From: a virus
Reading direction: 5' to 3' (one strand)
Virus record (IMG/VR): IMGVR_UViG_3300020439_000026
Span: 1-37,718 of that record
DNA: 37,718 bases
Positions within the stretch are counted from its first letter, which is position 1; the number at the start of each line of letters is the position of its first letter. The notes beneath the pieces are model-generated. The model had not been told where the DNA came from and ran no database searches. It was given only the letters and a program-made list of their open reading frames with translations. Below, one piece after another: positions 14,753-37,718 of the stretch. A program made the position numbers and the translations under genes.

Positions 14753-15292
14753 CTAATCACAATTTACTTCATTACCCCACACATCCCAACCTGTTCTTTT
14801 GTTCCTTGCAAACATTTCTAAATAATTACTTGGTGACATTTCTTCAACTAAATCAAAAAATTCTTGTGGTTTTGTAGAATGTTTTCTAGGTGCATTTGTA
14901 TTTATCCAATTCAGCTTCCCACATTTTTTAAATTTTTGCATAGGTTTTTTATAAAAACCAAGTAAACAAAATTCTGTGGCAAACTTGTAAGCGAAGTTAG
15001 GTGTCATTCCATTGTGTTTTGTCCAGACAAGAGTTAAATGATAATTCACACCCCAAGTTTTTAAAACATCAAATGTATAAGGCAACATTTTATTTGTTGT
15101 CCATGTATATACATGACATCCTAAATTAGCTACATCTGATATTGGTAATGCCTTGATTTGATCAAGTGTCATAGTCGGATAATCTAACTTAGTGGCTTGT
15201 TTTTTTCTTCTAATGTTTTTGCCAGACATGGTTATGTCCCAAGGTGGGTCAAGAACTATTGTGTTGTATTTTTTGTTCGGTAATTTAATCAT
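14753..15292 (-). CDS. MT-A70 family DNA N6-adenine methyltransferase
   Basis: 179 residues. The catalytic DPPW motif lies at residues ~16-19 (VLDPPWDI), followed by the usual YPTMTLDQIKALP segment, a HVYTWTTNKMLP strand and a C-terminal SPSNYLEMFARNKRTGWDVWGNE block, all typical of MT-A70 enzymes. These methylate adenine N6 in DNA using SAM. No restriction endonuclease is next to it, so it is an orphan, most simply protecting phage DNA from host restriction. It is embedded among virion genes rather than next to the C5 methyltransferase. An inverted repeat ATGGGT/ACCCAT (15291-15296 and 15324-15329) overlaps its start codon and could form a hairpin in the leader. Confidence 0.9.
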   Translation of the reverse strand: MIKLPNKKYNTIVLDPPWDITMSGKNIRRKKQATKLDYPTMTLDQIKALPISDVANLGCHVYTWTTNKMLPYTFDVLKTWGVNYHLTLVWTKHNGMTPNFAYKFATEFCLLGFYKKPMQKFKKCGKLNWINTNAPRKHSTKPQEFFDLVEEMSPSNYLEMFARNKRTGWDVWGNEVNCD

Positions 15293-23663: not shown

Positions 23664-24338
23664 TTATTTTTTTATGACATATCCCATAAAATTATAACTT
23701 TGCCAAACTTTTGTCGCTTGACCGATATAATTTATTTCATCTTGGAGTTCACTTTCCGTTTTGCAGAACATGCTTATACTAAGTTGTAAGTCTTTCTCCA
23801 ATATCTCTTTATCTGTGAAGTTTTTCCTTTTTTCTTGTATGTGAAGTCTGTGTAATGATTGTTGAATTTTTGCATCATCTAAATGTACTTTTTCTGCCAA
23901 TAAAACTACACCACCTTCATCAACAACATTTTTCATTATCTCAACTACTCTTCCCCTTTTCTTTTGTCCAAGAAATTGAAGAAAAAACATTGAGACTAAA
24001 ACTGAAATAAAATCTTTATGAGTATGTGGTTTATAAGAAATATTTGTTTTACCTAAAAAATAATCTTCTTCTACATCACCCTTGATAAATTCAAAATCCT
24101 GCTTTCTGTTTTTCATATCTACTTCATCAATACCAATATATCTACAATCAGGAATCTTGCTTAGATTTGAAAGAAATCTTCCAGTAGAACAACCCATATC
24201 TAAAACAATAGATTCAGGTTGTGCATTTTCGTGTGTAATATTTTTGAATATCTGATCTAAGGTATTCAAATTCGGAATTGATAATTCTATGTGCTTATCA
24301 AAATCCGACAAATTTTTAAAGTTAAATCGCTTTATCAT
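23664..24338 (-). CDS. CmoA-like SAM-dependent enzyme (carboxy-SAM synthase relative)
   Basis: 224 residues, Rossmann methyltransferase fold. Motif I is LDMGCSTG (residues 46-53), the acidic SAM-ribose residue is in IGIDE (D71), and FIKGDVEED follows. The second half matches CmoA in order: LQFLGQKKRGRVVEIM, GGVVLLAEKVHLDD, LHRLHIQEKRKNFTDKEILEK, KVWQSYNFMGYVI. CmoA makes carboxy-SAM from SAM and prephenate. By my hand alignment two E. coli cofactor contacts are changed (Arg199 position is Asp183; Asn132 position is Met), so carboxy-SAM synthesis is not assured. The ATG overlaps the stop of the C5 methyltransferase (ATGA), so the two are coupled and probably work together. Alternative: a small-molecule or tRNA methyltransferase. 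Confidence 0.75.
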   Translation of the reverse strand: MIKRFNFKNLSDFDKHIELSIPNLNTLDQIFKNITHENAQPESIVLDMGCSTGRFLSNLSKIPDCRYIGIDEVDMKNRKQDFEFIKGDVEEDYFLGKTNISYKPHTHKDFISVLVSMFFLQFLGQKKRGRVVEIMKNVVDEGGVVLLAEKVHLDDAKIQQSLHRLHIQEKRKNFTDKEILEKDLQLSISMFCKTESELQDEINYIGQATKVWQSYNFMGYVIKK

Positions 24339-25489
24339 ATTTCTCCTTTTTCTACTTTTTGAATTCTAGTTCCTAACCACTCCATAACATTTACAGACAT
24401 TGCCCTTCCACATGCTTCATATCTTTTTGAGATAGGTGCTTCTTCTTTTGGCTTTCCTCTGTATGGAATTTGTGTCCAATTGTCAGGTAAACCCTGAAGT
24501 CTTTCAGTTTCAAGCGGTGTCAATCTTCTTAAAATGTCTTGTTTTAAAATACATGGTTGCCTGTTTCCACCTGTCATTGCTGTAAGTGTTGGAGATATTT
24601 CTTCTTTGTGTATTCTTGGTGTACCATCTTTTGACCTTTGTTCAAAACATAATGTTTCATTTTCTTCATAATGAATTGAAGGTATTTCTGTAGCTGTCAA
24701 TGTGTAACTAGCACCATCTTTTTTATATCCCTTGCCATTGACCCTTGAATGATTTCCATGAATTATTGTTAAATCTTTTTCTACTATTAAGTCAGTTGGA
24801 GATTTGTAATCTCTAGCACGAACTGTACTTGCTACTTCGTCTTGGACATATTTATCACTTCTGACAATGCGGTGTGTAGATTTTTTGGTAATGTTTTCTT
24901 CTTTTTTTCTGCTCGGTGGAGAATTCCCTCGCAATGCTTCTTCGTCAAAAAGAACCTTTGCTGGATTTTTCCAGTCTCCAAGATGTCCGATAACGAAGAT
25001 ACGCCGCCTTCTTTGGGGGAGTGCTCTAGGGAATCGCTGTGTTCTGATATATTGAGTGTCAAGAACCCTGTAGGCGAACCCATACCTGCATTCTGCCATT
25101 GCTCCGAGGAAGGTTGCAAAGTCTTGTCCTTCATTAGATGACAGCAGACCGGGGACATTTTCCCAGACAAACCATTTCGGTTTAATCCGATCAACAAGTT
25201 TAATAAACTCAAGTGCGAGGTTTCCTCTATCTTCTGCAAGTCCTTTACGAAGTCCTGATATACTGAAGGTTGCACATGGTGTTCCCCCAACGATGATAGA
25301 AGGTCTTTCTGGTAAGTCATCTAACTGAATTTTTGTAAAATCCCCATGATTTTTTATTTGCGGAAAATGGTATTTTAACACAGCAGAACGAAACTGATCT
25401 ATTTCTGCTAGACCTAAACATTGAAATCCAAGTTTTTCCCATGCTACTCCTGCTGATTCTATCCCACTACATATTGACAAATATTTCAT
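24335..25489 (-). CDS. C5-cytosine DNA methyltransferase with altered motif X
   Basis: 384 residues. Motif I SICSGIESAGVAW (5-17), catalytic Cys72 in GGTPCATFS (motif IV), WENVPG (motif VI, 109-114), PQRRRRIF (motif VIII, ~158-165), a ~170-residue target-recognition region, and RRLTPLETERLQGLPDNWT (motif IX). Motif X normally reads G-N-S/A; here it is YEACGRAMSVNVMEWLG, with Arg362 in place of the Asn. All core catalytic residues remain, so the enzyme should flip and attack cytosine. The change falls where the cofactor binds. It lies between the primase-helicase and the CmoA-like gene, coupled to both. No partner endonuclease is seen. Target sequence cannot be read from the protein. Confidence 0.93.
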   Translation of the reverse strand: MKYLSICSGIESAGVAWEKLGFQCLGLAEIDQFRSAVLKYHFPQIKNHGDFTKIQLDDLPERPSIIVGGTPCATFSISGLRKGLAEDRGNLALEFIKLVDRIKPKWFVWENVPGLLSSNEGQDFATFLGAMAECRYGFAYRVLDTQYIRTQRFPRALPQRRRRIFVIGHLGDWKNPAKVLFDEEALRGNSPPSRKKEENITKKSTHRIVRSDKYVQDEVASTVRARDYKSPTDLIVEKDLTIIHGNHSRVNGKGYKKDGASYTLTATEIPSIHYEENETLCFEQRSKDGTPRIHKEEISPTLTAMTGGNRQPCILKQDILRRLTPLETERLQGLPDNWTQIPYRGKPKEEAPISKRYEACGRAMSVNVMEWLGTRIQKVEKGEI

Positions 25490-36273: not shown

Positions 36274-36747
36274 TTAGTCTTTGGAAGAATTAGATGCTCC
36301 AAAGTAAAACGAGATAATAGCACTAGCAAGACCACCTAAATAACCAAGGACAAGGTTTATGAGTGCTTCTGAATTCTGTTCTGGTGGTTGCAGGGTTACT
36401 AAAAATATATAACCAAGGAAGCCACCGATTGTTGCAATACCAATTATTCTTGCTGTCCAATCTTTTGAAAAATGTTTTCTAGCATCTTGCTTTTCTTGTG
36501 CTTCAAGAGCAAAAACATCAACATCAAGTTTTTTCATTTCAGCTTCAAATTCAAGTTCTGCTTTTTTAATTTTTGCTAGTTCTTCAGGTGAAGCATTTTG
36601 CATTGCTTGTTCAATTGATTTTTTATTATTTGGCACACCTAAAGTTTCGGAAATGATTTTAGCCGCCATTCCACCCATAGGCCCACCAAGTGCAGTGCCT
36701 AGAGTTGGTGCGACAGCACCTAAAAGATTTTTTAAGATAGCTTTCAT
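36274..36747 (-). CDS. Holin of 3TM GTA type
   Basis: 157 residues. N-terminal Gly/Ala-rich hydrophobic region (LLGAVAPTLGTALGGPMGGMAAKIISETLG), a charged helix (EELAKIKKAELEFEAEM), then ARKHFSKDWTARIIGIATIGGFLGYIF and a last transmembrane segment ending in IISFYFGASNSSKD. This matches the GTA holin 3TM family, which permeabilises the inner membrane for lysozyme. The start overlaps the cyclase stop (ATGA), coupling the two. Confidence 0.88.
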   Translation of the reverse strand: MKAILKNLLGAVAPTLGTALGGPMGGMAAKIISETLGVPNNKKSIEQAMQNASPEELAKIKKAELEFEAEMKKLDVDVFALEAQEKQDARKHFSKDWTARIIGIATIGGFLGYIFLVTLQPPEQNSEALINLVLGYLGGLASAIISFYFGASNSSKD

Positions 36748-37718
36748 TTTTTAAATGTATAAACTTTTAGTTTATCTTTTTTACCTTTGACCACTATATC
36801 ATCTAATTCAACCAAATCAAAAGAACAATTCTTTGCAGTTTCTTCGCCTATTAAAACATCTTCACCAACAACCTTTGTATTTGATTCAAGCCTAGCGGCG
36901 ACATTGCATGGGTCTCCAATTAAACTAAAAGCGAACCTGTCAGATGCACCGAAATTTCCCGCCAAAACTACACCAGATTGAACACCTTGTCCTATCGCTA
37001 TTTTTGGTATGTTTTCTTTTTCAAACTTTTTGTTAAGTTCAGCTATATTCTTTTGGATTTCTTTCACAGCTTTGAGAGCTAAATCGTGGTGATCTGGTTG
37101 AGGAATAATTGTATTGAAATGAAACATACCTGCATCACCAATAAATTTATCTGTTACACCGAAGAATTTATTGACTGCTTTGACTTGAACATCTAAAACA
37201 TTATTCATAATATAACTGACTTTTTCAGGTTCTATAGATTCTGATAATTTTGTAAACCCTCGTAAGTCTGTAAAAATTATTGAGCAATCTACTCTCTTAC
37301 CATTGACCTGACAAAGATCAGGATTATCTTGTAATTTCTTTACCATTCTTTTATCTAAATATTTACCGAATTGGTTCTTGATTTGTTCTCTCAGTTTCCA
37401 TTGTTTTCTAAAGGCAAAATAATAAGAGGTACTTGCTACAATAAATTGTCCAATCAAACTCCAAGTTACATCAATTAAAACTCCATTTTGAATCGTCCAA
37501 AAGCCATAGGAAGCAGTAGAAAGAAAGACTAAAACACTGAGGGTAAGACTAAGGGTAATACCAAAAGAACTCGTTAGAAGCCAAATAAGAAGCCCAGAAA
37601 AGATAAAAATAGCTAGTTCTAGGGTTAAATGCCAGTTTGGTATGTAAGGACTGTTCTCTAAAAGAATCGTTTCTGCTAGTGCAGTTTGGATTTTGTGTGG
37701 CTCTAAAAGTCCAGCAGG
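36744..37718 (-). CDS. Membrane adenylate cyclase (class III) with CHASE2-type N-terminus, 5' end cut by window
   Basis: 324 codons visible, open to the right edge. The visible part begins in what looks like the end of a CHASE2 sensor (PAGLLEPHKIQTALAETIL, SPYIPNW), then three transmembrane helices (about residues 31-48, 53-74, 80-103), the KLREQIKNQFGKYLDKRMV linker and a class III catalytic domain. Metal Asp residues are in FTDLRGF (151) and FIGDAG (195); the ATP-selecting Lys is 191 in DKFIGD; the transition-state Asn and Arg are in NVAARLE (272, 276). The usual adenine-contacting Thr is Ser (FSLIGD). All catalytic residues are present, so it should make cAMP. A TTG at 37457 is an unlikely internal start. 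It sits directly before the holin. Confidence 0.88.
   Translation of the reverse strand, partial: PAGLLEPHKIQTALAETILLENSPYIPNWHLTLELAIFIFSGLLIWLLTSSFGITLSLTLSVLVFLSTASYGFWTIQNGVLIDVTWSLIGQFIVASTSYYFAFRKQWKLREQIKNQFGKYLDKRMVKKLQDNPDLCQVNGKRVDCSIIFTDLRGFTKLSESIEPEKVSYIMNNVLDVQVKAVNKFFGVTDKFIGDAGMFHFNTIIPQPDHHDLALKAVKEIQKNIAELNKKFEKENIPKIAIGQGVQSGVVLAGNFGASDRFAFSLIGDPCNVAARLESNTKVVGEDVLIGEETAKNCSFDLVELDDIVVKGKKDKLKVYTFKK

Follow-up and report, generated by a model that had tools for sequence, protein, structure and literature searches.

A probable CmoA-linked cytosine carboxymethyltransferase, outside the published SPPC group, in a phage record from IMG/VR

Among the terminase, portal, capsid and tail-type genes of a 37,718-base IMG/VR virus record (the whole stretch analysed here, hereafter the window; G+C 34.6%) lie two minus-strand genes that raise the question of whether this phage carboxymethylates the cytosines of its DNA. 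The first encodes a C5 cytosine DNA methyltransferase of 384 residues (24335..25489, -), which is a putative carboxymethyltransferase of the CmoX type and belongs to the GGTPC, P1 Dmt-like family; the second encodes a CmoA-like protein of 224 residues (23664..24338, -), a predicted carboxy-SAM (Cx-SAM) synthase of a phage CmoA lineage. The genes are in the order CmoX-CmoA and are coupled by an ATGA stop/start overlap (24335..24338, -) which, like the extents of both genes, is confirmed by the sequence as the initial annotation described it.

Until December 2025, 5-carboxymethylcytosine (5cxmC) was considered an unnatural base; in that month its natural occurrence was reported for Synechococcus phage S-B43 (Yang et al., Nat Commun; PMC12783734). 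In that system a phage CmoA makes Cx-SAM, CmoX makes 5cxmC, and CmoY adds glycine, with Arg350 of CmoX, at the place of HhaI Asn304, binding the carboxylate; the wild-type CmoX uses only Cx-SAM and not SAM, while an R350N mutant uses neither cofactor (PMC12783734). The window pair resembles this system in having a CmoA homologue beside a C5 methyltransferase with arginine for the motif X asparagine, a glutamate four residues before the arginine, a small residue after the catalytic cysteine, and, in several relatives of the window, a CmoY-like ligase. We consider it highly probable, from these sequence features and by analogy with S-B43, that the pair makes Cx-SAM and 5cxmC and acts as a DNA carboxymethylation cassette. 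The initial annotation had proposed just such a natural system from the CmoA relative and the motif X arginine, and it was right in kind: the pair fits the CmoA-CmoX type by its gene neighbourhood, by its residues and by the ligases resembling CmoY that its relatives carry, and the S-B43 precedent, with its own motif X arginine, is already published (PMC12783734). What is new here is a convergent methyltransferase lineage outside the published SPPC signature, the system itself being known.

We infer the activity, target sequence and purpose of the pair in the window phage by analogy, taking chemistry and structure from the S-B43 homologues. From SAM and prephenate of the host, the CmoA-like enzyme would make carboxy-SAM. 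The methyltransferase would act as a carboxymethyltransferase: it would flip out a cytosine, attack C6 through Cys72 and transfer the carboxymethyl group to C5, and Arg362 would hold the carboxylate at the site of the motif X asparagine, perhaps with Glu358 keeping it in position. Phage DNA would then contain 5-carboxymethylcytosine, which presumably protects it from host restriction; several relatives have a CmoY-like ligase that would go on to attach an amine such as glycine to the carboxymethyl group.

Motif X and the residues linked to it

The window methyltransferase matches PF00145 (Pfam, E=2e-50), and a letter-by-letter check upholds the reading that it keeps the Cys72 nucleophile, ENV (residues 110-112) and QRRRR (159-163) yet has GRAM at 361-364, the motif X Gly-Asn having become Gly361-Arg362 (codons GGA AGG, 24404..24409, -). 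The substitution claimed for motif X is real, as Arg362 aligns with an asparagine that is present in all 28 of the closest relatives and, in the same column, with Arg350 of S-B43 CmoX. A structural model of the methyltransferase is good only in its core (pLDDT 63.6, and weak elsewhere, which we count against the carboxymethylation reading); it matches HhaI with a Z of 23.9 (rmsd 2.7 over 233) and the S-B43 CmoX structure 8YF3 with a Z of 21.7 (rmsd 2.5 over 224), the latter being a fold-level alignment.

Arginine at 362 is fixed in the window clade (26/26 in the tree; 61 distinct sequences), and because of this fixation and the residues linked to it, a chance substitution is ruled out. Seventeen positions separate the GGTPC enzymes with arginine from those with asparagine. 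At position 358, glutamate is found in both the GGTPC-Arg and the SPPC-Arg enzymes and lysine or arginine in the GGTPC-Asn group; the window clade and the published CmoX group both pair Glu358 with Arg362, a pairing absent from the non-Arg relatives of either group, and Glu358 may position Arg362. Position 73, immediately after the catalytic cysteine, is a glutamine in the GGTPC-Asn enzymes, an alanine (Ala73) in the window clade and a serine or alanine in the SPPC-Arg enzymes, although some non-Arg SPPC relatives also carry serine there. When distinct sequences are scored at positions 73, 358 and 362, 45 are Ala-Glu-Arg, two are Val-Glu-Arg, and 45 are Gln-Lys/Arg-Asn.

These patterns bear on a more conventional explanation, namely that the window enzyme is an ordinary 5-methylcytosine enzyme with a neutral change in motif X, and that the CmoA-like gene, adjacent by coincidence, encodes a methyltransferase of small molecules or tRNA with no connection to it. 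We regard this as very unlikely, since no group other than the CmoA-linked clade has fixed the combination of Arg362, Glu358 and Ala73 (replaced by Val in 2 of 47), several relatives have CmoY-like ligases, and wild-type S-B43 CmoX, with the same arginine, cannot use SAM (PMC12783734); the features of the CmoA-like protein that speak for it are considered below. The engineered M.MpeI N374K offers a further parallel to the carboxymethyltransferase reading in that replacing the motif X asparagine by a positively charged residue gives use of Cx-SAM, as cited in PMC12783734; it is a laboratory mutant with a lysine and prefers CG, whereas the window enzyme is natural and has an arginine.

A separate observation concerns another locus (L200, 2059-3339), which encodes a GGFPC C5 methyltransferase with an aspartate at motif X (G-D-A-M); a CmoA gene was not found at that locus.

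Probable independent origin and association with CmoA

With GGTPC as its catalytic loop, the window enzyme has its relatives among phage enzymes resembling P1 Dmt. Both sequence and tree assign it to the family of P1 Dmt and its phage C5 methyltransferase relatives (phrog_116), but those enzymes differ in having asparagine at motif X, glutamine after the catalytic cysteine and lysine or arginine at 358, with no CmoA beside any of those fetched. The initial annotation had suggested a family tree of the motif X arginine enzymes together with a count of their CmoA-like neighbours. In a tree of 72 rows a single clade (26 rows, 100/100 support) unites the GGTPC-Arg enzymes and joins the asparagine-bearing GGTPC enzymes in a larger group (54 rows, 100/99 support), and the SPPC group, including S-B43 CmoX, is distant from them. 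Forcing the GGTPC-Arg and SPPC-Arg enzymes into one clade costs 238 log-likelihood units (delta lnL 238) and is rejected with a p-AU of 1e-55. This test also rejects a shared origin of the window enzyme and the published SPPC-Arg enzymes, so that the motif X arginine most likely arose independently in the GGTPC and SPPC groups. The published survey lists 5,615 sequences with both SPPC and R350 (PMC12783734). The SPPC catalytic motif that defines the published CmoX set is absent from the window enzyme, which has GGTPC instead, and on this ground and that of the rejected common clade it lies outside that set, although it very probably functions like CmoX. It differs further from the S-B43 arrangement in its gene order of CmoX-CmoA with no CmoY found, and in an aspartate, rather than the glutamate of S-B43, at the Arg199 place of CmoA; the target of S-B43 CmoX is GC.

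No cultured phage or bacterial genome with a close relative was found: the phage collection had none at least 60% identical, the genome contigs gave only an asparagine-bearing match at 45% identity, and a megablast of one related contig against phages returned no match.

The neighbour count follows the tree. Among loci fetched by the methyltransferase alone, a CmoA-like gene is adjacent to 21 of 21 arginine enzymes and to 0 of 41 asparagine enzymes, a count from which 18 further loci that failed the motif pattern are left out and in which some records may be redundant. A scan of IMG/VR DNA in which the motif X residue was left free recovered 70 stretches, of which 68 have arginine, one is unreadable and one has aspartate, and a CmoA is present in the stretch for 63 of the 68. 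It had been argued that motif X arginine being common without a CmoA-like neighbour would speak against the proposal; that 63/68 have CmoA adjacent speaks the other way. One of the five exceptions (L159) is cut by the contig end. The other four (L148, L162, L171 and L194) have flanking DNA and we count them against the carboxymethylation reading: searches of the records of L148, L162 and L194 found no CmoA, and that of L171 gave only a marginal match (E=0.008) inside an unrelated frame of 1507 residues. Such loci could be served by a host CmoA, as E. coli CmoA serves S-B43 CmoX. L171 and L194 do carry a CmoY-like ligase after the GGTPC-Arg CmoX-type enzyme; neither record yielded a convincing CmoA, and the source of Cx-SAM in these two may be the host. 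The association of arginine with CmoA within the GGTPC family is a single evolutionary event, so that the individual counts are not independent of one another; the SPPC group is a second, independent case.

We think it likely that phages have at least twice made 5cxmC-forming enzymes out of unrelated C5 methyltransferase families, through one set of substitutions (motif X asparagine to arginine, a glutamate four residues earlier and a small residue after the catalytic cysteine), each beside a CmoA of one phage lineage, and that further CmoA-linked families, with glycine (Staphylococcus phages) or asparagine (L051) at motif X, may recognise the carboxylate otherwise. If so, this modification would have arisen independently in two methyltransferase families and would be carried by a phage group known here only from metagenomes, which a search keyed to SPPC would miss. 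The shared substitutions would amount to a testable recipe for converting a methyltransferase into a carboxymethyltransferase, and the GGTPC enzymes would offer a second protein family for DNA labelling, possibly with other target sequences.

Several loci show that arginine is not the sole arrangement, because CmoA is also linked to enzymes with glycine or asparagine at motif X, which we count against the reading. In two Staphylococcus phages, vB-SscS-F1 and an SPbeta-like phage (L003 and L005), a CmoA homologue lies near a GSPC C5 methyltransferase with glycine at motif X, and vB-SscS-F1 has, between the two, a CmoY-like gene with 35% identity to S-B43 CmoY; this pair of phages possibly represents another carboxymethyltransferase lineage without the arginine. 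At L051 (4015-5642) a CmoA-like gene, 45% identical to that of the window, overlaps a C5 methyltransferase gene of the GGFPC type; with C-N-G-M at motif X, this enzyme apparently keeps the asparagine and is CmoA-linked yet lacks arginine. Moraxella phage Mcat8 (L004, 2920-4627) carries an unannotated pair of the published type, an SPPC-Arg methyltransferase with a CmoA-like gene, each listed as a hypothetical protein. The record OR851014.1, 'Salmonella phage S.Kent 1-2-1' (L006), contains an apparent bacterial cmoA and cmoB side by side, and because of this adjacency it is probably host DNA within a phage record.

The CmoA-like protein

The identification of the neighbouring gene as a CmoA relative is well founded: TIGR00740 matches the protein (E=5.5e-15, below the curated cut-off), and the nearest solved structures are the E. 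coli and Haemophilus CmoAs. The best structural match to its AlphaFold model (pLDDT 89.0) is E. coli CmoA (Z 23.5, rmsd 2.3 over 208 residues); the sequences are 23% identical, and the two proteins share the fold, the SAM-binding residues Asp62, Gly64, Ser66, Asp89 and Asp117, and the conserved Glu164. They differ in neighbour, which in the window is a DNA methyltransferase and in E. coli, where CmoA serves the tRNA cmo5U pathway, is CmoB.

The initial annotation doubted that this protein makes Cx-SAM because the two E. coli residues it took to contact the carboxylate, Arg199 and Asn132, appeared to be replaced by Asp183 and a methionine. The alignment agrees with these replacements, with aspartate at the Arg199 place in 43 of 43 members of the window CmoA group, which we count against the carboxymethylation reading, and methionine at the Asn132 place. 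The contacts themselves stand only in part, as Arg199 alone contacts the carboxylate and Asn132 contacts the methionine part (PMC3663124, PMC4482062). The doubt does not survive comparison with S-B43. The SPPC-linked CmoAs have glutamate at the 199 place (7/7), and the S-B43 CmoA, identical to the S-B05 protein that was aligned, has glutamate and leucine at the 199 and 132 places; this proven Cx-SAM synthase has a kcat ten times that of the E. coli enzyme (PMC12783734). Because of these residues in a proven enzyme, Asp183 and the methionine are not disqualifying and Arg199 defines the bacterial and not the phage CmoAs, and we reject its absence as evidence against Cx-SAM synthesis. In the CmoA tree the proteins of both arginine groups and of L051 lie on one side of a branch with 100/98 support, and across a long branch on the opposite side are the bacterial, Moraxella and Staphylococcus phage CmoAs; the window protein thus falls, with 100/98 support, in a phage lineage that includes the proven S-B43 enzyme.

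The notion of an ordinary 5-methylcytosine enzyme beside an unrelated methyltransferase draws on the score below the curated CmoA cut-off, on the missing Arg199, and on PHROG 4752, which names the protein a tRNA methyltransferase; the second of these is countered by the proven S-B43 CmoA, which also lacks Arg199. Alternatively, the CmoA-like enzyme could make another SAM analogue, with another carboxyalkyl or related group, so that the DNA would bear a different C5 substituent. The aspartate at 199 (43/43) and the methionine at 132 are consistent with this, being unlike the bacterial residues and, in detail, unlike those of S-B43, but we judge it highly improbable, as S-B43 CmoA, with an acidic residue (glutamate) at 199, makes Cx-SAM (PMC12783734), and the CmoY-like ligases of the relatives are close homologues of a ligase that acts on 5cxmC. 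Synthesis of Cx-SAM remains our preferred reading.

Ligases, end product and other genes of the window

CmoY-like ligases, 46-53% identical over approximately 260 residues to S-B43 CmoY, adjoin GGTPC-Arg enzymes in three gene orders: CmoY-CmoX-CmoA, CmoY-CmoA-CmoX (L150, a partial ligase, 40%) and CmoX-CmoY. They are present in the relatives L019, L024, L027, L149, L152, L154, L179 and others, and none was found beside the asparagine enzymes among those fetched. These ligases raise the possibility that the carboxymethyl group is always modified further, to an amide or otherwise, by a ligase elsewhere in the phage or host, so that 5cxmC would never persist in free form; such an alternative touches only the end product and agrees with the first step proposed here. 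S-B43 sets a precedent, its DNA containing 5gcxmC and no free 5cxmC (PMC12783734), as do the ligases of the window relatives, but we consider obligatory further modification rather unlikely for the window phage: phmmer found no CmoY homologue among the window ORFs, Pfam found no ligase in the 10 window proteins scanned (a set covering part of the ORFs of at least 250 residues), and the close relatives fetched, on partial contigs, show no ligase either. Because CmoY was not found in the window, we expect its end product to be probably bare, unamidated 5cxmC.

A different type of cluster is seen in Streptomyces phage TurkishDelight (L210), where an SPPC-Arg methyltransferase lies beside two ParB-like genes and a gene with a glutamine amidotransferase domain, an arrangement that fits the glutamine-type ligase cluster (PMC12783734).

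Two other window genes deserve mention. An MT-A70 family methyltransferase (14753-15292, -; PF05063, E=1.5e-27) is a second nucleic acid methyltransferase in this phage and is probably an N6-adenine methyltransferase. At 36744-37718 (-), an ORF that runs past the window end encodes an adenylate/guanylate cyclase catalytic domain (PF00211, E=2e-16) and a hydrophobic N-terminal part; such a gene is unusual in a phage, and it may be an auxiliary gene, or the site may be a junction with host DNA.
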